The translations under genes were made by a program, and so were the position numbers. This document shows, in pieces, positions 23,561-64,000 of a stretch of 64,000 nucleotides of DNA; positions within the stretch are counted from its first letter, which is position 1; each line of letters starts with the position of its first letter. Source of the DNA: Acetivibrio thermocellus ATCC 27405 (lineage in GTDB: Bacteria; Bacillota; Clostridia; Acetivibrionales; Acetivibrionaceae); contig NC_009012.1 of NCBI RefSeq assembly GCF_000015865.1, forward strand, positions 3,403,081-3,467,080, read 5' to 3'. Under the pieces are notes generated by a model. That model made no database searches, was not told where the DNA came from, and saw nothing but the letters and a program-made list of their open reading frames with translations.

Positions 23561-23995
23561 GTGAAAGTATTGAAAACTTATAACTCGAAAGTGTCAAGTC
23601 AAAAGGAAAATATTTGTTTTTTGGTCAAAGATATAATGAAATTCTTATCCGACTCAAGTGATGTAAGTGAAGATGTCCTGTTTGAAATCAAAGTTATATT
23701 GAATGAACTTCTGCAAAATGCAATAAAACACGGTAATAAAGAAGATGCGTCAAAGTCGGTTGAAGTCAGTGTGGGTATAACGGCTGATAATCATGTCTAT
23801 CTTATAGTGGAGGACGAAGGTGAGGGCTACGACTTGGATTGCGTATGCGCAAAGGAAGAAGTCCCCGAGGAGGTTACGGATGTATGCGATCTTAAAGAAA
23901 ACGGGCGGGGAATCCTGATTGTGAAAAATTTGTGCGACAGGATAAGACTTAATAAGAAAGGAAACAAGGTAATAGTATTTAAAAGCCTTAAATAA
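23561..23995 (+). CDS. RsbW-like anti-sigma ATPase/kinase with intact ATP site
   Basis: A 144-aa GHKL ATPase. N-box FEIKVILNELLQNAIKHGN has Glu49 and Asn53. The G1 box is EDEGEGYD (D85-G89) and the lid is NGRGILIVKNLCD, so all ATP-binding motifs missing from the upstream anti-sigma are here. It is a plausible serine kinase for the STAS antagonist or a second sigma-binding protein. It stands alone behind a sigma-B-like promoter, 166 nt after sigma. GTG start, AGGGGAG site. Confidence 0.82.
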   Translation: MKVLKTYNSKVSSQKENICFLVKDIMKFLSDSSDVSEDVLFEIKVILNELLQNAIKHGNKEDASKSVEVSVGITADNHVYLIVEDEGEGYDLDCVCAKEEVPEEVTDVCDLKENGRGILIVKNLCDRIRLNKKGNKVIVFKSLK

Positions 23996-53895: not shown

Positions 53896-54651
53896 ATGAT
53901 AAATGTGCAATCTCTGTCCAAGAAGTTTGGCGATATTGCCGCAGTAAGCGGTATCAGCTTTGAAGTAAAAGAAGGCGAAGTATTCGGGCTGCTGGGGGAA
54001 AACGGAGCGGGGAAAACTACGACCCTGAGAATGCTTGCGACTATGCTTAAGCCCACTTCCGGCACTGCAACAATGGCGGGCTGGGACATTGTAAAAGAAC
54101 CCGAAAAAGTAAGAAGCAGCATAGGAATACTTTTCGGCGGAGAAACCGGACTTTATGACAGGCTGACATGCGAAGAGAACATTGCATATTTCGGAGAACT
54201 CAATGACATGAGCAAAACTCAAATAAAAGAAAGGATTAAAGAACTTGCAAAAGTTTTCAACATGGAAGAGTATTTGAAGAGAAGAGCCGGAAAGCTCTCA
54301 AAGGGAATGAAACAGAAGGTGGCGTTTGCGAGGGCCATAGTGCATGACCCGAAAATAATGCTTTTGGATGAGCCCACGTCCGGACTTGATGTCAGCGCAA
54401 CAAGAGACGTGCATGAATTTATTGTAACTTGCAAAAAACAAGGCAAAACCGTGATTTTTTCCAGCCACAGCATGAGCGAGGTTGAAAAACTCTGCGATCG
54501 TGTTGCCATAATTCACAAGGGAAGGCTGGTTGAAGTGGGCACTCTTGATGAGATTAAGTCCAGGCACGGCAAAAATGACCTTGAGAATATATTTATCGAA
54601 TTGGTGGGTGACAGAAGTGAAAGCTGGCAGGCACGTATGGATTGTATTTAA
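53896..54651 (+). CDS. ABC transporter ATP-binding protein, NatA-like
   Basis: A 251-aa ATPase; Walker A GENGAGKTT, signature LSKGMKQKVAFARA, Walker B KIMLLDEPTSGLDVSA, H-loop FSSHSMSEVEKLC. It pairs with the ABC-2 permease that overlaps its end by 35 nt. NatAB exports sodium in Bacillus, but related pairs move other substrates, so the cargo is open. Confidence 0.88.
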   Translation: MINVQSLSKKFGDIAAVSGISFEVKEGEVFGLLGENGAGKTTTLRMLATMLKPTSGTATMAGWDIVKEPEKVRSSIGILFGGETGLYDRLTCEENIAYFGELNDMSKTQIKERIKELAKVFNMEEYLKRRAGKLSKGMKQKVAFARAIVHDPKIMLLDEPTSGLDVSATRDVHEFIVTCKKQGKTVIFSSHSMSEVEKLCDRVAIIHKGRLVEVGTLDEIKSRHGKNDLENIFIELVGDRSESWQARMDCI

Positions 54652-55834
54652 AAAAGAGGTAAAGGATATTGTAAGGGACAAAAAGACCCTTCTTACCAGT
54701 ATATTTGTTCCAATGCTGTTAATTCCCGTTTTAAGCATGCTTGTCGGAGGAAGTATAGAAAAGCTCAACAGGGATATAAGTGAAAACGTTACCATAGCAT
54801 TGACCAAAGAATCCGATACCGATGAGATTAGTAATATAGTGGAAAATCAAATAATCAGGGACTATCCCAACATAAAACTGATTGAAGTGGATGACCCCAT
54901 AAAAGCTATTAATGAATCAAAAGTGAGGTTGGTATTGGATTTTGAGAAGGATTATGCGTCCAAATTGAAAGAGGGCAAACCTTTTGTGATAAAGCTTATA
55001 TATGACAAGTCCCAGACCAAATCGGGAGGAAGTCTTGGCATATTATGGGATGCAATTGAAAGTTTTAATGAGAGAATCGTGAAAGAAAGACTTAATTCTT
55101 TGGGAATAAGCCCGGAAGTATTGACACCCGTTGTGATTGAAGAAACCAATATTGCCGATGAGGAAAAAACCAGTGCAAGTATCCTTGCCATGTCACTTCC
55201 CATGATGCTTGTGATTTTGATAGCATCCGGGGGTGTTGCTGCGGCTACGGACCTTGTGGCAGGGGAAAAAGAAAGAAATACTTTTGAACCTTTGCTTACC
55301 ACCAAACCCAGCAGATTTTCCCTTCTTTTCGGCAAATATCTGGCAGTGACTTTGTTTTCTTTTGTGTCGGTTGTTGCAACAATGATAGGAGCAGCTGCGG
55401 GATTTATGATAGACCCGTCCACCATGGTTATGGGAGTCGGTACGGATATTACAGGTTTTAGCATACCGCCGTTGGCAGTTTTTTTGGCCGTCATAATTTC
55501 AATAACCTTTGGAATGACTTTTTCAGGCCTAGAGATAGCCCTCAGCACCTATGCAAAATCCTTTAAAGAGGCCCAGACATACATGTCTTTTCTGTTGATA
55601 ATAGTTATGATTCCCGCTTTTTCCACAATGCTTATGCAGCCCAATGACATTCCGGCATATATGTTTCTTGTACCTGTTATGAATACGCTGGCAGCTTTCA
55701 AGATAGTGCTGGGTGGCAGTATCAACTATTTTTATTTACTTATGGCTCTGGGGTCGTCGTTGGTGTATGTCGGCATTACCCTGTGGCTTGCGGCCACACT
55801 GTTTAAAAAAGAAAAAGTGCTGTTTAGAAGCTAA
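54617..55834 (+). CDS. ABC-2 type permease, NatB-like
   Basis: 405 aa; first helix after the basic FKKEVKDIVRDKKTLLTSIF motif, a large external domain (about 50-175), then five or so helices from VILIASGGVAAATDLVAGEKERNTFEPLLTTKPSRF region onward. GEKERNTFEPLLTTK is the NatB/YhaP coupling motif. GTG after GGTGGGTG was chosen because its product starts at the usual place. Confidence 0.85.
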   Translation: MKAGRHVWIVFKKEVKDIVRDKKTLLTSIFVPMLLIPVLSMLVGGSIEKLNRDISENVTIALTKESDTDEISNIVENQIIRDYPNIKLIEVDDPIKAINESKVRLVLDFEKDYASKLKEGKPFVIKLIYDKSQTKSGGSLGILWDAIESFNERIVKERLNSLGISPEVLTPVVIEETNIADEEKTSASILAMSLPMMLVILIASGGVAAATDLVAGEKERNTFEPLLTTKPSRFSLLFGKYLAVTLFSFVSVVATMIGAAAGFMIDPSTMVMGVGTDITGFSIPPLAVFLAVIISITFGMTFSGLEIALSTYAKSFKEAQTYMSFLLIIVMIPAFSTMLMQPNDIPAYMFLVPVMNTLAAFKIVLGGSINYFYLLMALGSSLVYVGITLWLAATLFKKEKVLFRS

Positions 55835-56102: not shown

Positions 56103-57917
56103 ATGCTTTTTGGACGCAAAAAGGGAATGCCCGAAGTGATAAAGGGACTTGAAGAGGAAAAAATCAGCACGTCATGGAAATTAAACCTTGAATTTGCGCT
56201 AATAGTTATGTTTTCCATATTTGTGGTAGGTGCAGCCTCGTTTGGTATGATTTCGAACTTTATATTAAATCATGCAAAGGTCAGTTCCAGCGAGCTTATC
56301 AAGCAAACATCCAAAAACATTGAAGCTATTCTGACAGGTTTTGATGAACTGGCGATGACTGTGTCAAGGGATAACACACTGGCAGAGTATATAAGTGTGC
56401 ACGACAGTATAGAGGATGTTAATCTTAAGGCTCAAAATGAAAGAAAAATCAAGGAAATCCTGAATAATTACGCAAAAAAAAGAAAAGACATAACCAATAT
56501 TGCAGTGGTATCAAACGGGGGAACTTACATAACACCAGATGAGACAAAACCGGGCATTGATAAAAATATAGATGACATTTATGCGGTAAAAGCGTTTAAA
56601 GAAAGCCACAGGCAGTCATTATGGCTCAACACGTATACATTGGACACTTCACCCTCCGAAAATGTACAGGTCTTTTCAATAATAAAGGGGATATATTCTT
56701 TAAGCAGTCTGAAAAGCCAGGGAATCTTGATTATAAACATTACGGAAGACTATCTTTTCAGACTTATATCGGATATTAAGCCCATTGACGACGGAAGAAT
56801 CTATATAATCGGCAGTGACGGGAATTACGTTTTAAACCCCTATGACAGAAGCAAGAACGGTAAAAAGGCGGATCTTGAGTTTGTGGAGGACATGCTGCGC
56901 AAGGGCGAGAATGTGGACATAAAGGAAATAAATGGTGAGGAGTATCTTGTGACTTACAATACCATTCAGGAGATAAAAGGTACCGGGCTGGGATGGATGA
57001 TAGTCGAGATTACTCCGGTTTCGGTGATCAGAACCAGTGTTACCGAAGCGGGAATGCGCCTGTTTTTCATAGGTTTTGGGTGTGTTGTCCTGGGATTGAT
57101 TCTTGTAGGGATGGCAACCGCTTTTTACAACCGATATCTCAATAAAAGCTATTGGGAAAGGCATTCCGTTGCATTGGAAAGGGAGAGACTTGCTTCCTTG
57201 GGACAACTGATAGGGGGAATTGCACACAATTTCAAAACTCCAATTATGTCAATAGCCGGAGGACTGGAGGCATTAAAAGATCTTGTGGATGAGTACGACA
57301 TTTCCATCGGAGATCCGCAGGTAACCGGTGAGGATCATCATGAAATTGCTGCTGAAATGAGAGATTGGATAAGCAAAATAAAGCCTTACTGCGGGTATAT
57401 GTCGGAGATTATATCCACGGTAAAAGGGCAGGCCGACAATATGAATGGATCAGAGAATTCAAGCTTTACGGTGGGAGAACTTTTAAAAAGAGTTGAAATT
57501 TTAATGAGCCACGAGCTTAAAAAATTTTCCTGCGAGCTGAGATTGGATATAAAAGTGGATGAGGATACAACTATAAAAGGAGAAATAAACAACCTTGTAC
57601 AGGTATTGAACAACCTTATATCCAATTCTATCGAGTCTTACAACGGAAAGGAAGGAAAAATAGACCTGTCAGTAAGCAAAAATGGCCAGGAATTGGAAAT
57701 AGTTGTAAAAGACTATGGATGCGGCATACCGGAAAATGTAAAGAGGAAACTTCTGAAAGAAATGATAACGACCAAGGGAAAAAACGGAACAGGACTTGGC
57801 CTTTATATGTCTCACTCCACGATTAAGGGCAAATTTGGCGGAACAATGAAAGTCAAGAGTGAGGAAGGAAAAGGGACGGAAATATGCATTTTGATTCCTT
57901 TTGCTGCCAAAACTTAA
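56103..57917 (+). CDS. Membrane sensor histidine kinase with extracellular Cache-like domain
   Basis: 604 aa: helix 1 (about 29-53), extracellular Cache-like sensor (about 60-315, with IYIIGSDGNYVLNPYD), helix 2 (about 322-345), then HisKA-type core. The phospho-acceptor is His375 in GGIAHNFKTPIMS. ATPase motifs: N-box VLNNLISNSIES, G1 KDYGCGIP, G2 GKNGTGLGLYMSHS. No response regulator is adjacent. A paralog follows after 20 nt, and natAB lies upstream. The ligand is unknown. ATG start, weak GGGGG upstream. Confidence 0.88.
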   Translation: MLFGRKKGMPEVIKGLEEEKISTSWKLNLEFALIVMFSIFVVGAASFGMISNFILNHAKVSSSELIKQTSKNIEAILTGFDELAMTVSRDNTLAEYISVHDSIEDVNLKAQNERKIKEILNNYAKKRKDITNIAVVSNGGTYITPDETKPGIDKNIDDIYAVKAFKESHRQSLWLNTYTLDTSPSENVQVFSIIKGIYSLSSLKSQGILIINITEDYLFRLISDIKPIDDGRIYIIGSDGNYVLNPYDRSKNGKKADLEFVEDMLRKGENVDIKEINGEEYLVTYNTIQEIKGTGLGWMIVEITPVSVIRTSVTEAGMRLFFIGFGCVVLGLILVGMATAFYNRYLNKSYWERHSVALERERLASLGQLIGGIAHNFKTPIMSIAGGLEALKDLVDEYDISIGDPQVTGEDHHEIAAEMRDWISKIKPYCGYMSEIISTVKGQADNMNGSENSSFTVGELLKRVEILMSHELKKFSCELRLDIKVDEDTTIKGEINNLVQVLNNLISNSIESYNGKEGKIDLSVSKNGQELEIVVKDYGCGIPENVKRKLLKEMITTKGKNGTGLGLYMSHSTIKGKFGGTMKVKSEEGKGTEICILIPFAAKT

Positions 57918-57937
57918 GAGACGGGTGGGAGTGTAAA

Positions 57938-59788
57938 ATGTCAAAAGAGATGAAAGCGCCGGAAAAAATAAAAAGTGTTTTTAAAAGATTTAATATAAAA
58001 ACAATAAACAAGCAAATAAGGCTCAATATCGTTTTTGGTTTGATTGTATTAATTTCCACCATGTTGTTGGGATATCTGTCCTTTGACATGATATCGGATG
58101 CCATGATAAGGCATGCCGGTGCGGACAACCTGGAGCTTGTAAAACAAATAACCAAAAATATTGAGACAGTAATGACCGGATTTGACGATATTTCAAACGA
58201 AATTCTTACCAATGAAAACTTTGACAGGCTTGTAAAAATGCATGTTACATTGGATGATGAACATAAAAAGGCAGCAAACAGAAGAAGCATAGAGAGTATA
58301 CTAAACGGTTATACCAACACGAGAACGGACATAGCGGACATAGCAGTGGTTACAAATACCGGAGAATACATTACCTCGGGAGAAACAAGACCTTTGGTTA
58401 CGGACAATGCGCTTTCATACTATGTAGTAAAAAGATTCAAGCAAAGCGGAAGAGACTCATTGTGGCTTGACACGTATCAGACTGAGGTTGCATCCACGGG
58501 AACACATACAGGGAACCAGCTGGTCATATCCAACATAAAAAGCATTAAAGGAGAAAACAATGAAGAAATTGGCATGCTTATCCTTAATGTAAAAGAATCC
58601 TACATATACAGTCTTATATCGGAAATAAAGCTTCCCGATGAAGGGCAGCTGTATATTGTCGGAAAAGACGGCAATTATGTAATGAATCCATTTAACAGGC
58701 TTCAAAATGGGAAAGTGGATTATGTAAAATATGAGTTGTATATTGAAGAAATATTAAAGAAAAAAAACGGAACATTTATAAAAAAAATAGATGGAAGGGA
58801 TTACTTGCTGGCCTTCCAGACGATTGACAGCATAAACGGTATTGAACTGGGATGGACGGTATTCGGGATGACACCGGTTGATATCATAACGTCGGGTATT
58901 GAAAGTACCCAAGATATTTTGTATGAGATTGGGTTGATATGCGTTATCGCAGGATTTGTGATTTCTCTGCTGATTACAAGGCTTTACAATGCTCATCTGG
59001 AAAAGAGATATGAAAGAAAGCACTCCATTATTATGGAAAGGGAGAGGCTTGCATCTTTGGGACAGCTTATGGGCGGAATAGCACAGAGTTTTAAAGCTCC
59101 AATTATGTCAATATCGGATGGACTTGATGAATTAAACAGTCTTGTGGATGAATATGAAAAATCCATAGAAAACGAAAATGTGTCGGATGAGACAAGGCAT
59201 GAGATTGCTTCCAGGATGAGAGAGTGCCTGGACAAGATAAAACCGCATTGTTCGTATATTTCCGATGAAATATCTGCCGTAAAGGGGCAGGCTGTCAATT
59301 TCAACGATTCGACAGACGGAATTTTTACTGTTGATGAATTGATTAAAAATGTAAAACTGCTCATGAGCCATGAGATTAAATTCTGGAATTGTGAAATGAA
59401 CGTGGAACTTAAAGTAAGCGGAGACACCTCGATAAGAGGAGAAATAAACAATATGACTCAGGTAATGAATAATATAATTACCAATGCCATTGAAGCCTAT
59501 AACGGCAAAGGAGGAAAAATTGATTTAATATTCAGCAAAAAAGGACATAATTTGGAGATAACCGTAAGAGATTATGGATGCGGAATCCCCGAAAGCGTAA
59601 AAAGCAAACTGTTTAAAGAAATGGTGACGACCAAGGGTTCAAAAGGTACGGGTATAGGCGTGTATATGGCCTATTCCACCATAAAAGGAAAATTCGGAGG
59701 AACCATGACCATTGACAGCAAGGAAGGGAAGGGAACCTCCGTAAATATCACCATACCCTTAAAGGATAAAGATTTTACTCCACCGTAA
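57938..59788 (+). CDS. Paralogous sensor kinase-like protein lacking the phospho-acceptor His
   Basis: 616 aa, same layout and strong similarity to the preceding kinase. The dimerisation helix reads GGIAQSFKAPIMS: the His is Gln383 (CAG). ATP-binding motifs are intact (MNNIITNAIEAYNG, RDYGCGIP, GSKGTGIGVYM). It may bind ATP and phosphorylate its partner in a heterodimer, or act as a sensor-only pseudokinase. ATG after GGGTGGGAG; the upstream open frame overlaps the previous gene without a site. Confidence 0.85.
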   Translation: MSKEMKAPEKIKSVFKRFNIKTINKQIRLNIVFGLIVLISTMLLGYLSFDMISDAMIRHAGADNLELVKQITKNIETVMTGFDDISNEILTNENFDRLVKMHVTLDDEHKKAANRRSIESILNGYTNTRTDIADIAVVTNTGEYITSGETRPLVTDNALSYYVVKRFKQSGRDSLWLDTYQTEVASTGTHTGNQLVISNIKSIKGENNEEIGMLILNVKESYIYSLISEIKLPDEGQLYIVGKDGNYVMNPFNRLQNGKVDYVKYELYIEEILKKKNGTFIKKIDGRDYLLAFQTIDSINGIELGWTVFGMTPVDIITSGIESTQDILYEIGLICVIAGFVISLLITRLYNAHLEKRYERKHSIIMERERLASLGQLMGGIAQSFKAPIMSISDGLDELNSLVDEYEKSIENENVSDETRHEIASRMRECLDKIKPHCSYISDEISAVKGQAVNFNDSTDGIFTVDELIKNVKLLMSHEIKFWNCEMNVELKVSGDTSIRGEINNMTQVMNNIITNAIEAYNGKGGKIDLIFSKKGHNLEITVRDYGCGIPESVKSKLFKEMVTTKGSKGTGIGVYMAYSTIKGKFGGTMTIDSKEGKGTSVNITIPLKDKDFTPP

Positions 59789-60245
59789 TACAGCTAAATA
59801 CCTGGATACCCTGGCCCTGACCGAATTGAGTAAGGCCTTCGCCGGTGGTGGCGGTTATGCCTATGGAGTTTTCCGGTATGTCCAAAAGCTTCGCGAGACT
59901 GCTTCTGATTGCAGGAATATGGGGAGTGATTTTTGGAGTAAGGCATTCTATGGATATTGACACATGAATTATTTTTTGCCCGTTTAAATATTTAAGTGCT
60001 TCTTTCAGATAAACTTTACTGTCGGTTATGCCTTTTTCAAGGCAAAGCTCATCGCTGATTTTGCCAAGGATGTTTACGCAGGTGACTCCGGAAATTGCAT
60101 TTGTAAGAGAGTGGAGTATAACATCTGCATCGCTGTTTCCTTTGAGCGGCGGGTAGCCTTCCAATACCACTCCTCCAAGCACGAGCTTTTTATCCTTGTT
60201 ATCAAAATCAAACCTGTGGCTGTCCTGTCCTATTCCAACTTTCAT
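59775..60245 (-). CDS. ispF: 2-C-methyl-D-erythritol 2,4-cyclodiphosphate synthase, divergent
   Basis: MEP-pathway enzyme forming MEcPP with release of CMP. 156 aa, normal length. Metal ligands are kept: Asp8 and His10 in GIGQDSHRF, His45 in NSDADVILH. Some usual residues differ: the His of (A/G)HSDxDV is Asn37, and the following GDIGxxFPD segment is replaced by NILGKISDE. The end reads ATTGEGLTQFGQGQGI. Its 3' end overlaps the kinase gene by 14 nt, convergently. ispF is the best call; reduced activity or an altered role is possible. Confidence 0.82.
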   Translation of the reverse strand: MKVGIGQDSHRFDFDNKDKKLVLGGVVLEGYPPLKGNSDADVILHSLTNAISGVTCVNILGKISDELCLEKGITDSKVYLKEALKYLNGQKIIHVSISIECLTPKITPHIPAIRSSLAKLLDIPENSIGITATTGEGLTQFGQGQGIQVFSCITVE

Positions 60246-63714: not shown

Positions 63715-64000
63715 TTATACAGGCAATTGTGTAATTGTTTTCAACAAAAATCTCTTTAATATGGAATAATCCACTGAGTCAACGGAGCCGTTTCTATTCA
63801 GGTCTGCCGCCTTAAGTTTTTCCTCCGTCAAATCTATTTGTTTAAGTATGTATCTTTTTAATAATGAATAGTCGCTTGAGTTTACCAGTCCGTCTCCGTT
63901 CAAATCACCATATACTATATTTTGATTGTTTTGTTTAACTATGACAATATAATTCACAGCCCCGCTTGAAGCCCCATTAGGACCAAGGGTTACAACGGAG
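63715..64000 (-). CDS. C-terminal end of a dockerin-bearing cellulosomal protein (cut by window edge)
   Basis: The minus-strand frame stays open to the right edge, so this is only the 3' end of a larger gene. The visible ~94 residues are a short beta-like stretch (GAVNYIVIVK) and a C-terminal type I dockerin. Its two F-hands are DLNGDGLVNSSDYSLLKRYIL and DLNRNGSVDSVDYSILKRF, each with the Ser-x plus Lys-Arg pattern. The catalytic domain is outside the window, so its enzyme activity cannot be told. Confidence 0.88.
   Translation of the reverse strand, partial: SVVTLGPNGASSGAVNYIVIVKQNNQNIVYGDLNGDGLVNSSDYSLLKRYILKQIDLTEEKLKAADLNRNGSVDSVDYSILKRFLLKTITQLPV

Follow-up and report, generated by a model that had tools for sequence, protein, structure and literature searches.

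Within a 64,000-nucleotide stretch of the Acetivibrio thermocellus ATCC 27405 genome (NC_009012.1, positions 3,403,081 to 3,467,080; hereafter the window), two adjacent genes, designated here HK1 and HK2, encode paralogous membrane sensor kinases, the second of which carries Gln at the position of the phospho-acceptor His and keeps its ATP-binding site. We propose, at a probability of roughly one half, that HK2 is a pseudo-kinase subunit acting with HK1 in a mixed dimer on one or more orphan response regulators (RRs) of the HD-GYP type. The pair and its parts, in window positions, are:

56103..57917, + strand: HK1, membrane sensor kinase (dCache, DHp, HATPase_c), 604 amino acids (aa); open reading frame (ORF) and Pfam
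56262..57005, + strand: HK1 dCache_1 extracellular sensor domain, residues 54-301; Pfam PF02743, E 1.3e-24
57225..57227, + strand: HK1 His375 codon CAC, phospho-acceptor; present in 9/9 HK1 orthologues
57585..57905, + strand: HK1 ATP-binding domain, residues 495-601; Pfam PF02518, E 2.4e-21
57938..59788, + strand: HK2, paralogous sensor kinase without the phospho-acceptor His, 616 aa; ORF, Pfam and tree
58100..58867, + strand: HK2 dCache_1 sensor domain, residues 55-310; Pfam PF02743, E 4.3e-33
59084..59086, + strand: HK2 Gln383 codon CAG, replacing His; sequence, alignment and model
59117..59131, + strand: HK2 D394 (H+11) to E398 (H+15), altered residues of the RR-docking patch; HK853 rewiring entry 4jas
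59447..59764, + strand: HK2 ATP-binding domain, residues 504-609, boxes intact; PF02518, E 2.5e-21

Both ORFs are intact, lie on the same strand and are separated by 20 nt; the HK2 start is taken as the ATG at 57938, which gives 616 aa and the Q383 numbering, rather than the upstream ATG at 57884 from which the ORF list began. Pfam matches and the predicted structure of HK2 give the two proteins one layout, a dCache_1 sensor followed by a DHp region and an HATPase_c domain, and sequence and model together predict an N-terminal membrane helix and a second one after dCache_1 in each. The sensors of HK2 and HK1 are 42% identical, and a structure search with the predicted model matched the sensor of HK2 to tandem Cache domains (Z about 20-22). 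These fold matches span many amino-acid and other chemoreceptor domains, inspection by eye revealed no clear amino-acid motif, and we claim no ligand. HK1 has the features of a HisKA-type kinase, with H375 in DHp and an HATPase_c domain bearing the invariant N, G1 and G2 boxes; its HisKA match lies under the Pfam cut-off (21.4 vs 26.9 bits), and HK2 has no HisKA match in Pfam at all. HK2 retains the complete HATPase_c domain and has Q383 where the acceptor should be, so that its sequence lacks what defines an acceptor kinase, and it would work like a protein of a known kind: its homologous fold, missing acceptor residue and conservation under selection are those of a pseudo-histidine kinase.

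The replacement is well documented. The alignment places Q383 of HK2 opposite H375 of HK1, and in the predicted structure of HK2 (predicted local distance difference test score, pLDDT, 78.6) residue 382 superposes on residue 259 of HK853, so that Q383 is modelled where HK853 has its acceptor, H260. The same CAG codon occupies the acceptor site in A. straminisolvens (G004) and A. mesophilus (G005), while His is kept by all of about 105 other distinct members of the kinase family that we examined; because the codon is common to two sister species, and none of those other relatives lacks His, the Gln is neither chance nor a sequencing error. HK2 and the other His-less proteins all retain the ATP-box residues N512, N516, D545, G549, G570, G572 and G574. 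An earlier note, made from the sequence alone, had described a second kinase with Gln for the phospho-acceptor His and an intact ATP site; both statements hold, and its numbering of H375 and Q383 is exact. As a separate observation on this site, 98% of all kinases of the family carry Asn directly after the phospho-His (H+1; N376 in HK1), where a Glu or Asp usually acts as the phosphorylation base.

HK2 might be phosphorylated on another His, and the protein does retain others, among them H362, H421, H437 and H478. None of these, nor any further His, is common to all His-less HK2 proteins, which makes a substitute acceptor unlikely on the alignment; H478 moreover lies in or beside the ATP domain, is also present in HK1 and is Tyr in the HK2 of one species (G002). 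We regard this explanation as the least probable of those considered here, and a very remote one.

The history of the pair was traced through 14 genomes of the family, comprising Acetivibrio (six genomes with the pair), a second genus, g3 (three with the pair), and a third, g2 (five without it). The pair is syntenic in 9/14 of these genomes, and the gene order IspD, ABC ATPase, ABC-2 permease, HK1, HK2 and a convergent IspF is kept as far as the fetched contigs extend. In a tree of the kinase cores all HK1 proteins group in a single clade and all HK2 proteins in another, with both genera represented in each; together with the conserved order this argues for a single duplication before the two genera parted. 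The acceptor position is His in 9/9 HK1 proteins. HK2 keeps His there in the three g3 genomes and in one Acetivibrio genome, G001, and has Gln (CAG) in A. thermocellus, G004 and G005, Tyr (TAC) in G003 and Val (GTT) in G002. With His ancestral, this distribution takes a minimum of three changes on the tree, and sequence comparison thus points to at least three independent losses of His in HK2 and none in HK1. In the draft genome of A. straminisolvens (L045/L062), HK1 is split into three frames and the neighbouring ABC ATPase and ProS genes are split likewise; because these neighbours are broken too, assembly errors are a more likely cause than gene decay.

Repeated loss of the acceptor residue might also be expected of a duplicate on its way to becoming a pseudogene, with His and docking residues lost by drift. 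It is compatible with relaxed constraint at that residue, and the DHp domain of HK2 does evolve faster than that of HK1, with nonsynonymous to synonymous rate ratios (dN/dS) of 0.10-0.17 and 0.04-0.11, respectively; these and the following values are simple Nei-Gojobori estimates between Acetivibrio species at high dS and indicate order of magnitude only. The ORF of HK2 is, however, intact in 9/9 genomes, its ATP-box residues are invariant in every His-less protein, and constraint on its ATP domain (dN/dS 0.09-0.11, versus 0.04-0.09 in HK1) and sensor (0.11-0.19, versus 0.18-0.19) is about equal to that on HK1. The ATP domain of HK2 is under purifying selection, as in HK1; HK2 is no pseudogene, and relaxation is concentrated in DHp, the domain that bears the His and docks the RR. 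Decay is accordingly a very improbable account of this gene.

Change within DHp extends beyond the His. We sought alignment columns in which each of the six Acetivibrio HK2 proteins holds a residue present in <5% of 105 other family members. Nine such columns emerged, 7/9 of them inside the DHp domain (hypergeometric P about 0.002); the equivalent test on HK1 returned three, with 0 in the DHp stretch. At H+11, Gly is present in 101/105 family members and is replaced by D, N, E, Q, Q and R in the Acetivibrio HK2 proteins, and at H+15, where the family has mostly Gly or Ala, these proteins have E or D. The two positions correspond to A271 and T275 of HK853, two of the five residues altered to rewire its choice of partner (as given in the title of PDB 4jas). 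The HK2 of G001, in which His is still present, shares the patch changes (Q at +11, D at +15), and for that reason loss of docking would have preceded loss of His. In the simplest reading, HK2 probably ceased to dock an RR in the ancestor of Acetivibrio, whereupon its His became dispensable and was repeatedly lost. This order, docking patch before His, is one that we infer from a single tree, and as the nine columns fall on one branch some of the changes may be neutral.

The earlier note reported no RR nearby, and indeed the 64-kb window contains no receiver domain, the nearest in the genome being >100 kb from the pair. It had also suggested a search for orphan RRs. Relatives with kinase cores mostly about 50-63% identical to those of HK1 and HK2 are usually encoded directly before an RR made up of a receiver, often a DUF3369 domain, and HD-GYP. 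The neighbouring kinase and RR genes found among them make up 65 distinct pairs, and the RR lies downstream in 75/77 raw cases. By homology HK1 and HK2 belong to this HD-GYP-partnered family, and they depart from it in having no RR alongside. When one such partner RR was used to search the A. thermocellus genome, just two matches spanned the receiver:

genome 880,415-881,905: RR-A, REC-DUF3369-HD-GYP, 69% identical to the query RR
genome 1,681,576-1,683,051: RR-B, REC-DUF3369-HD-GYP, favoured here, 60% identical to the query RR

The receiver and HD-GYP motifs are intact in both, and inspection of their flanks revealed no adjoining kinase gene. In a tree of RRs each forms a well-supported clade of orphans, and the tree alone assigns no partner to either. 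RR-A is found in every one of the three genera. The distribution of RR-B matches that of the pair (the same 9/14 genomes): none of the five g2 genomes has it, one of these being just 55% complete. In G001 and G003, HK1 and HK2 are the sole kinases of the family at E <= 1e-30 and both RRs are present, which suggests that the pair may serve both. Compared over 14 positions with the consensus of adjacent RRs, the alpha-1 docking helix agrees at 10 in RR-B and 8 in RR-A, and at 3 and 1 in the two copies of Spo0A; given this higher agreement, an HD-GYP RR appears by homology a better candidate target than Spo0A. A literature search on thermocellum with HD-GYP or cyclic di-GMP found nothing relevant in the collection of papers searched. 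Among the relatives, a kinase with seven-transmembrane (7TM) and PAS sensors and its REC-DUF3369-HD-GYP RR lie directly beside genes resembling those of non-ribosomal peptide synthetases in three genomes (L064, L053, L061), which suggests control of a secondary metabolite there.

These elements can be assembled into a mechanism in which HK1 and HK2 would form a putative mixed dimer whose sole phosphorylated His is His375 of HK1, reached by the ATP domain of HK1 or, in trans, by that of HK2. Only HK1 would dock the RR, and the sensor of HK2 would provide a second input, raising or lowering the output of HK1. By homology, the target would be one or both of the orphan REC-DUF3369-HD-GYP RRs, with RR-B favoured, and the output control of cyclic di-GMP breakdown. 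The earlier note had proposed a likely heterodimer, tuned by two ligands, in which one subunit supplies catalysis and the other the His. A dependent subunit is favoured by a His-less protein with a conserved ATP site beside a complete kinase; the note's strict division of roles is weakened, since HK1 is itself a complete kinase and requires no such split. To the putative dimer HK2 would contribute at most extra catalysis or regulation. A more exacting version, with an obligate mixed dimer having one acceptor and one RR-docking surface, to which HK2 adds only a second sensor and ATP domain, with unlinked HD-GYP RRs and cyclic di-GMP breakdown as output, and with docking lost first and His then lost three times, is offered tentatively and seems to us somewhat doubtful.

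Several considerations weigh against the proposed dimer and its favoured target. HK1 could form a homodimer, with HK2 a separate protein. The co-occurrence of RR-B with the pair amounts to one evolutionary split between genera, and RR-A is as closely related to the family as RR-B and has a receiver that fits the consensus equally well. There is, finally, the link to sporulation: in length (604/616 aa) and architecture HK1 and HK2 match exactly Clo1313_0495 and Clo1313_0496 of strain DSM 1313, and a published review names those two among the A. thermocellus kinases that may govern sporulation, for which Spo0A would be the target, and gives their phenotypes as "not determined" (PMC11210211). The parts of the review drawn on here assign Clo1313_0496 a HisKA domain and make no mention of the missing His (PMC11210211).

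The pair might therefore act directly on Spo0A, like other clostridial orphan kinases, with HK2 in an accessory or phosphatase-like role such as has been proposed for PtpB of Clostridioides difficile. By the same account, no knockout of Clo1313_0495 could be made, the conserved His of PtpB is dispensable and hetero-oligomers with PtpA have been proposed (PMC11210211). The closest kinase-core paralogue of the pair in the genome, a protein of 712 aa with a LacI-type periplasmic-binding-protein sensor (about 313,876-316,014; L060, 1377-3515), matches in length and domains Clo1313_1973, whose loss is described there as raising sporulation (PMC11210211). Set against this are the gene neighbours of the kinase family, which are HD-GYP RRs and not Spo0A, and the poor fit of the alpha-1 helix in both Spo0A copies (3/14 and 1/14). 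Direct action on Spo0A thus seems unlikely, although it is the strongest of the competing explanations. Co-occurrence with Spo0A was tried as a test of partnership and set aside as non-discriminating, two Spo0A paralogues being present in 14/14 family genomes. In A. thermocellus these lie at genome positions 980,982-981,773 (L142) and 3,642,323-3,643,108 (L143), both scoring above the TIGR02875 cut-off, and the second of them may have a regulatory role of its own.

HK2 might, alternatively, stand free of HK1 as a pseudo-kinase homodimer that binds ATP, senses and signals by protein contact, forming no mixed dimers, much as DivL does. DivL has Tyr at the position of the acceptor His, and one HK2 (G003) carries exactly this His-to-Tyr change. 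A DivL structure, 4q20, is a structural match to HK2, and the published accounts, as far as they are used here, establish DivL as a known pseudo-histidine kinase (PMC4211667, PMC9430884). A free-standing HK2 leaves unexplained, however, its constant adjacency to a complete paralogous kinase in 9/9 genomes, and we consider this explanation improbable, more so than action on Spo0A. Should HK2 instead act with HK1 as proposed, the pair would gain wider interest, as naturally evolved sensor-kinase heterodimers are rarely documented. In nine species it spans states from two His (g3 and one Acetivibrio) to one, making the order of events readable and testable. Two candidate RRs can now be named for a pair regarded as orphan sporulation kinases, with a possible link to cyclic di-GMP in an industrial cellulose degrader.

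The neighbours of the pair in the window are:

53896..54651, + strand: ABC transporter ATPase, upstream neighbour; Pfam and synteny
54530..55834, + strand: ABC-2 permease, upstream neighbour, its true start probably inside the ORF; Pfam and synteny
59775..60245, - strand: IspF, convergent with HK2 with a 14 bp overlap, conserved neighbour; ORF and synteny

The ATPase and permease constitute an ABC-2 exporter (53896-55834) that immediately precedes the pair in both genera and may be functionally linked to its sensors. A scan for promoters and terminators gave matches no more frequent than in shuffled sequence. Elsewhere in the window, a 144-aa ORF at 23561-23995 has an HATPase_c match (genome 3,426,767-3,427,051) and is similar in length to anti-sigma-factor kinases such as SpoIIAB and RsbW. 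At the window end an ORF on the - strand (63715-63957) shows, by eye, a C-terminal dockerin-like repeat, as expected for a cellulosome-forming species.

Among the closest known systems, the 7TM-PAS kinase and REC-HD-GYP pairs of Clostridia (L064, L053, L061 and others) share about 50-63% identity in the kinase core and display what is presumed to be the ancestral arrangement; they differ in having other sensors and a single His-bearing kinase directly beside its RR. PtpA and PtpB of C. difficile are likewise two orphan kinases acting jointly, with a conserved His in PtpB that is not needed and hetero-oligomers proposed, although, in the portion of the report relied on here, they have PAS sensors and a role in sporulation, PtpB still has its His, and locus numbers place the two genes far apart (PMC11210211). 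DivL of Caulobacter resembles HK2 as a pseudo-histidine kinase that has kept the kinase fold; it is described in the material cited as reading the phosphorylation state of an RR and controlling CckA, and it is no tandem paralogue of its partner (PMC4211667, PMC9430884; 4q20). The ChrS pseudokinase of Corynebacterium glutamicum and HrrS are paralogous kinases whose native forms heterodimerise in two-hybrid assays, yet that pseudokinase was evolved in the laboratory and has a broken ATP domain and an intact His, the reverse of HK2 (PMC9491836). As adjacent paralogous sensor kinases, HK1 and HK2 have the arrangement of split kinases of the FasB/FasC type, the tandem paralogues of group A Streptococcus that interact and divide kinase roles (PMC12675982). 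FasB and FasC associate specifically in two-hybrid assays, one of their ATP domains is dispensable and a key His, H246, resides in one partner. Their RR is encoded in the same operon, whereas that of HK1 and HK2 would be unlinked, and their proposed pseudokinase needs its His and not its ATP domain, whereas HK2 has no His and has kept its ATP domain. The novelty of the A. thermocellus pair lies in the combination: next to a complete kinase stands its own paralogue, which has naturally lost the His and changed its docking patch, and sister species still show the intermediate states.

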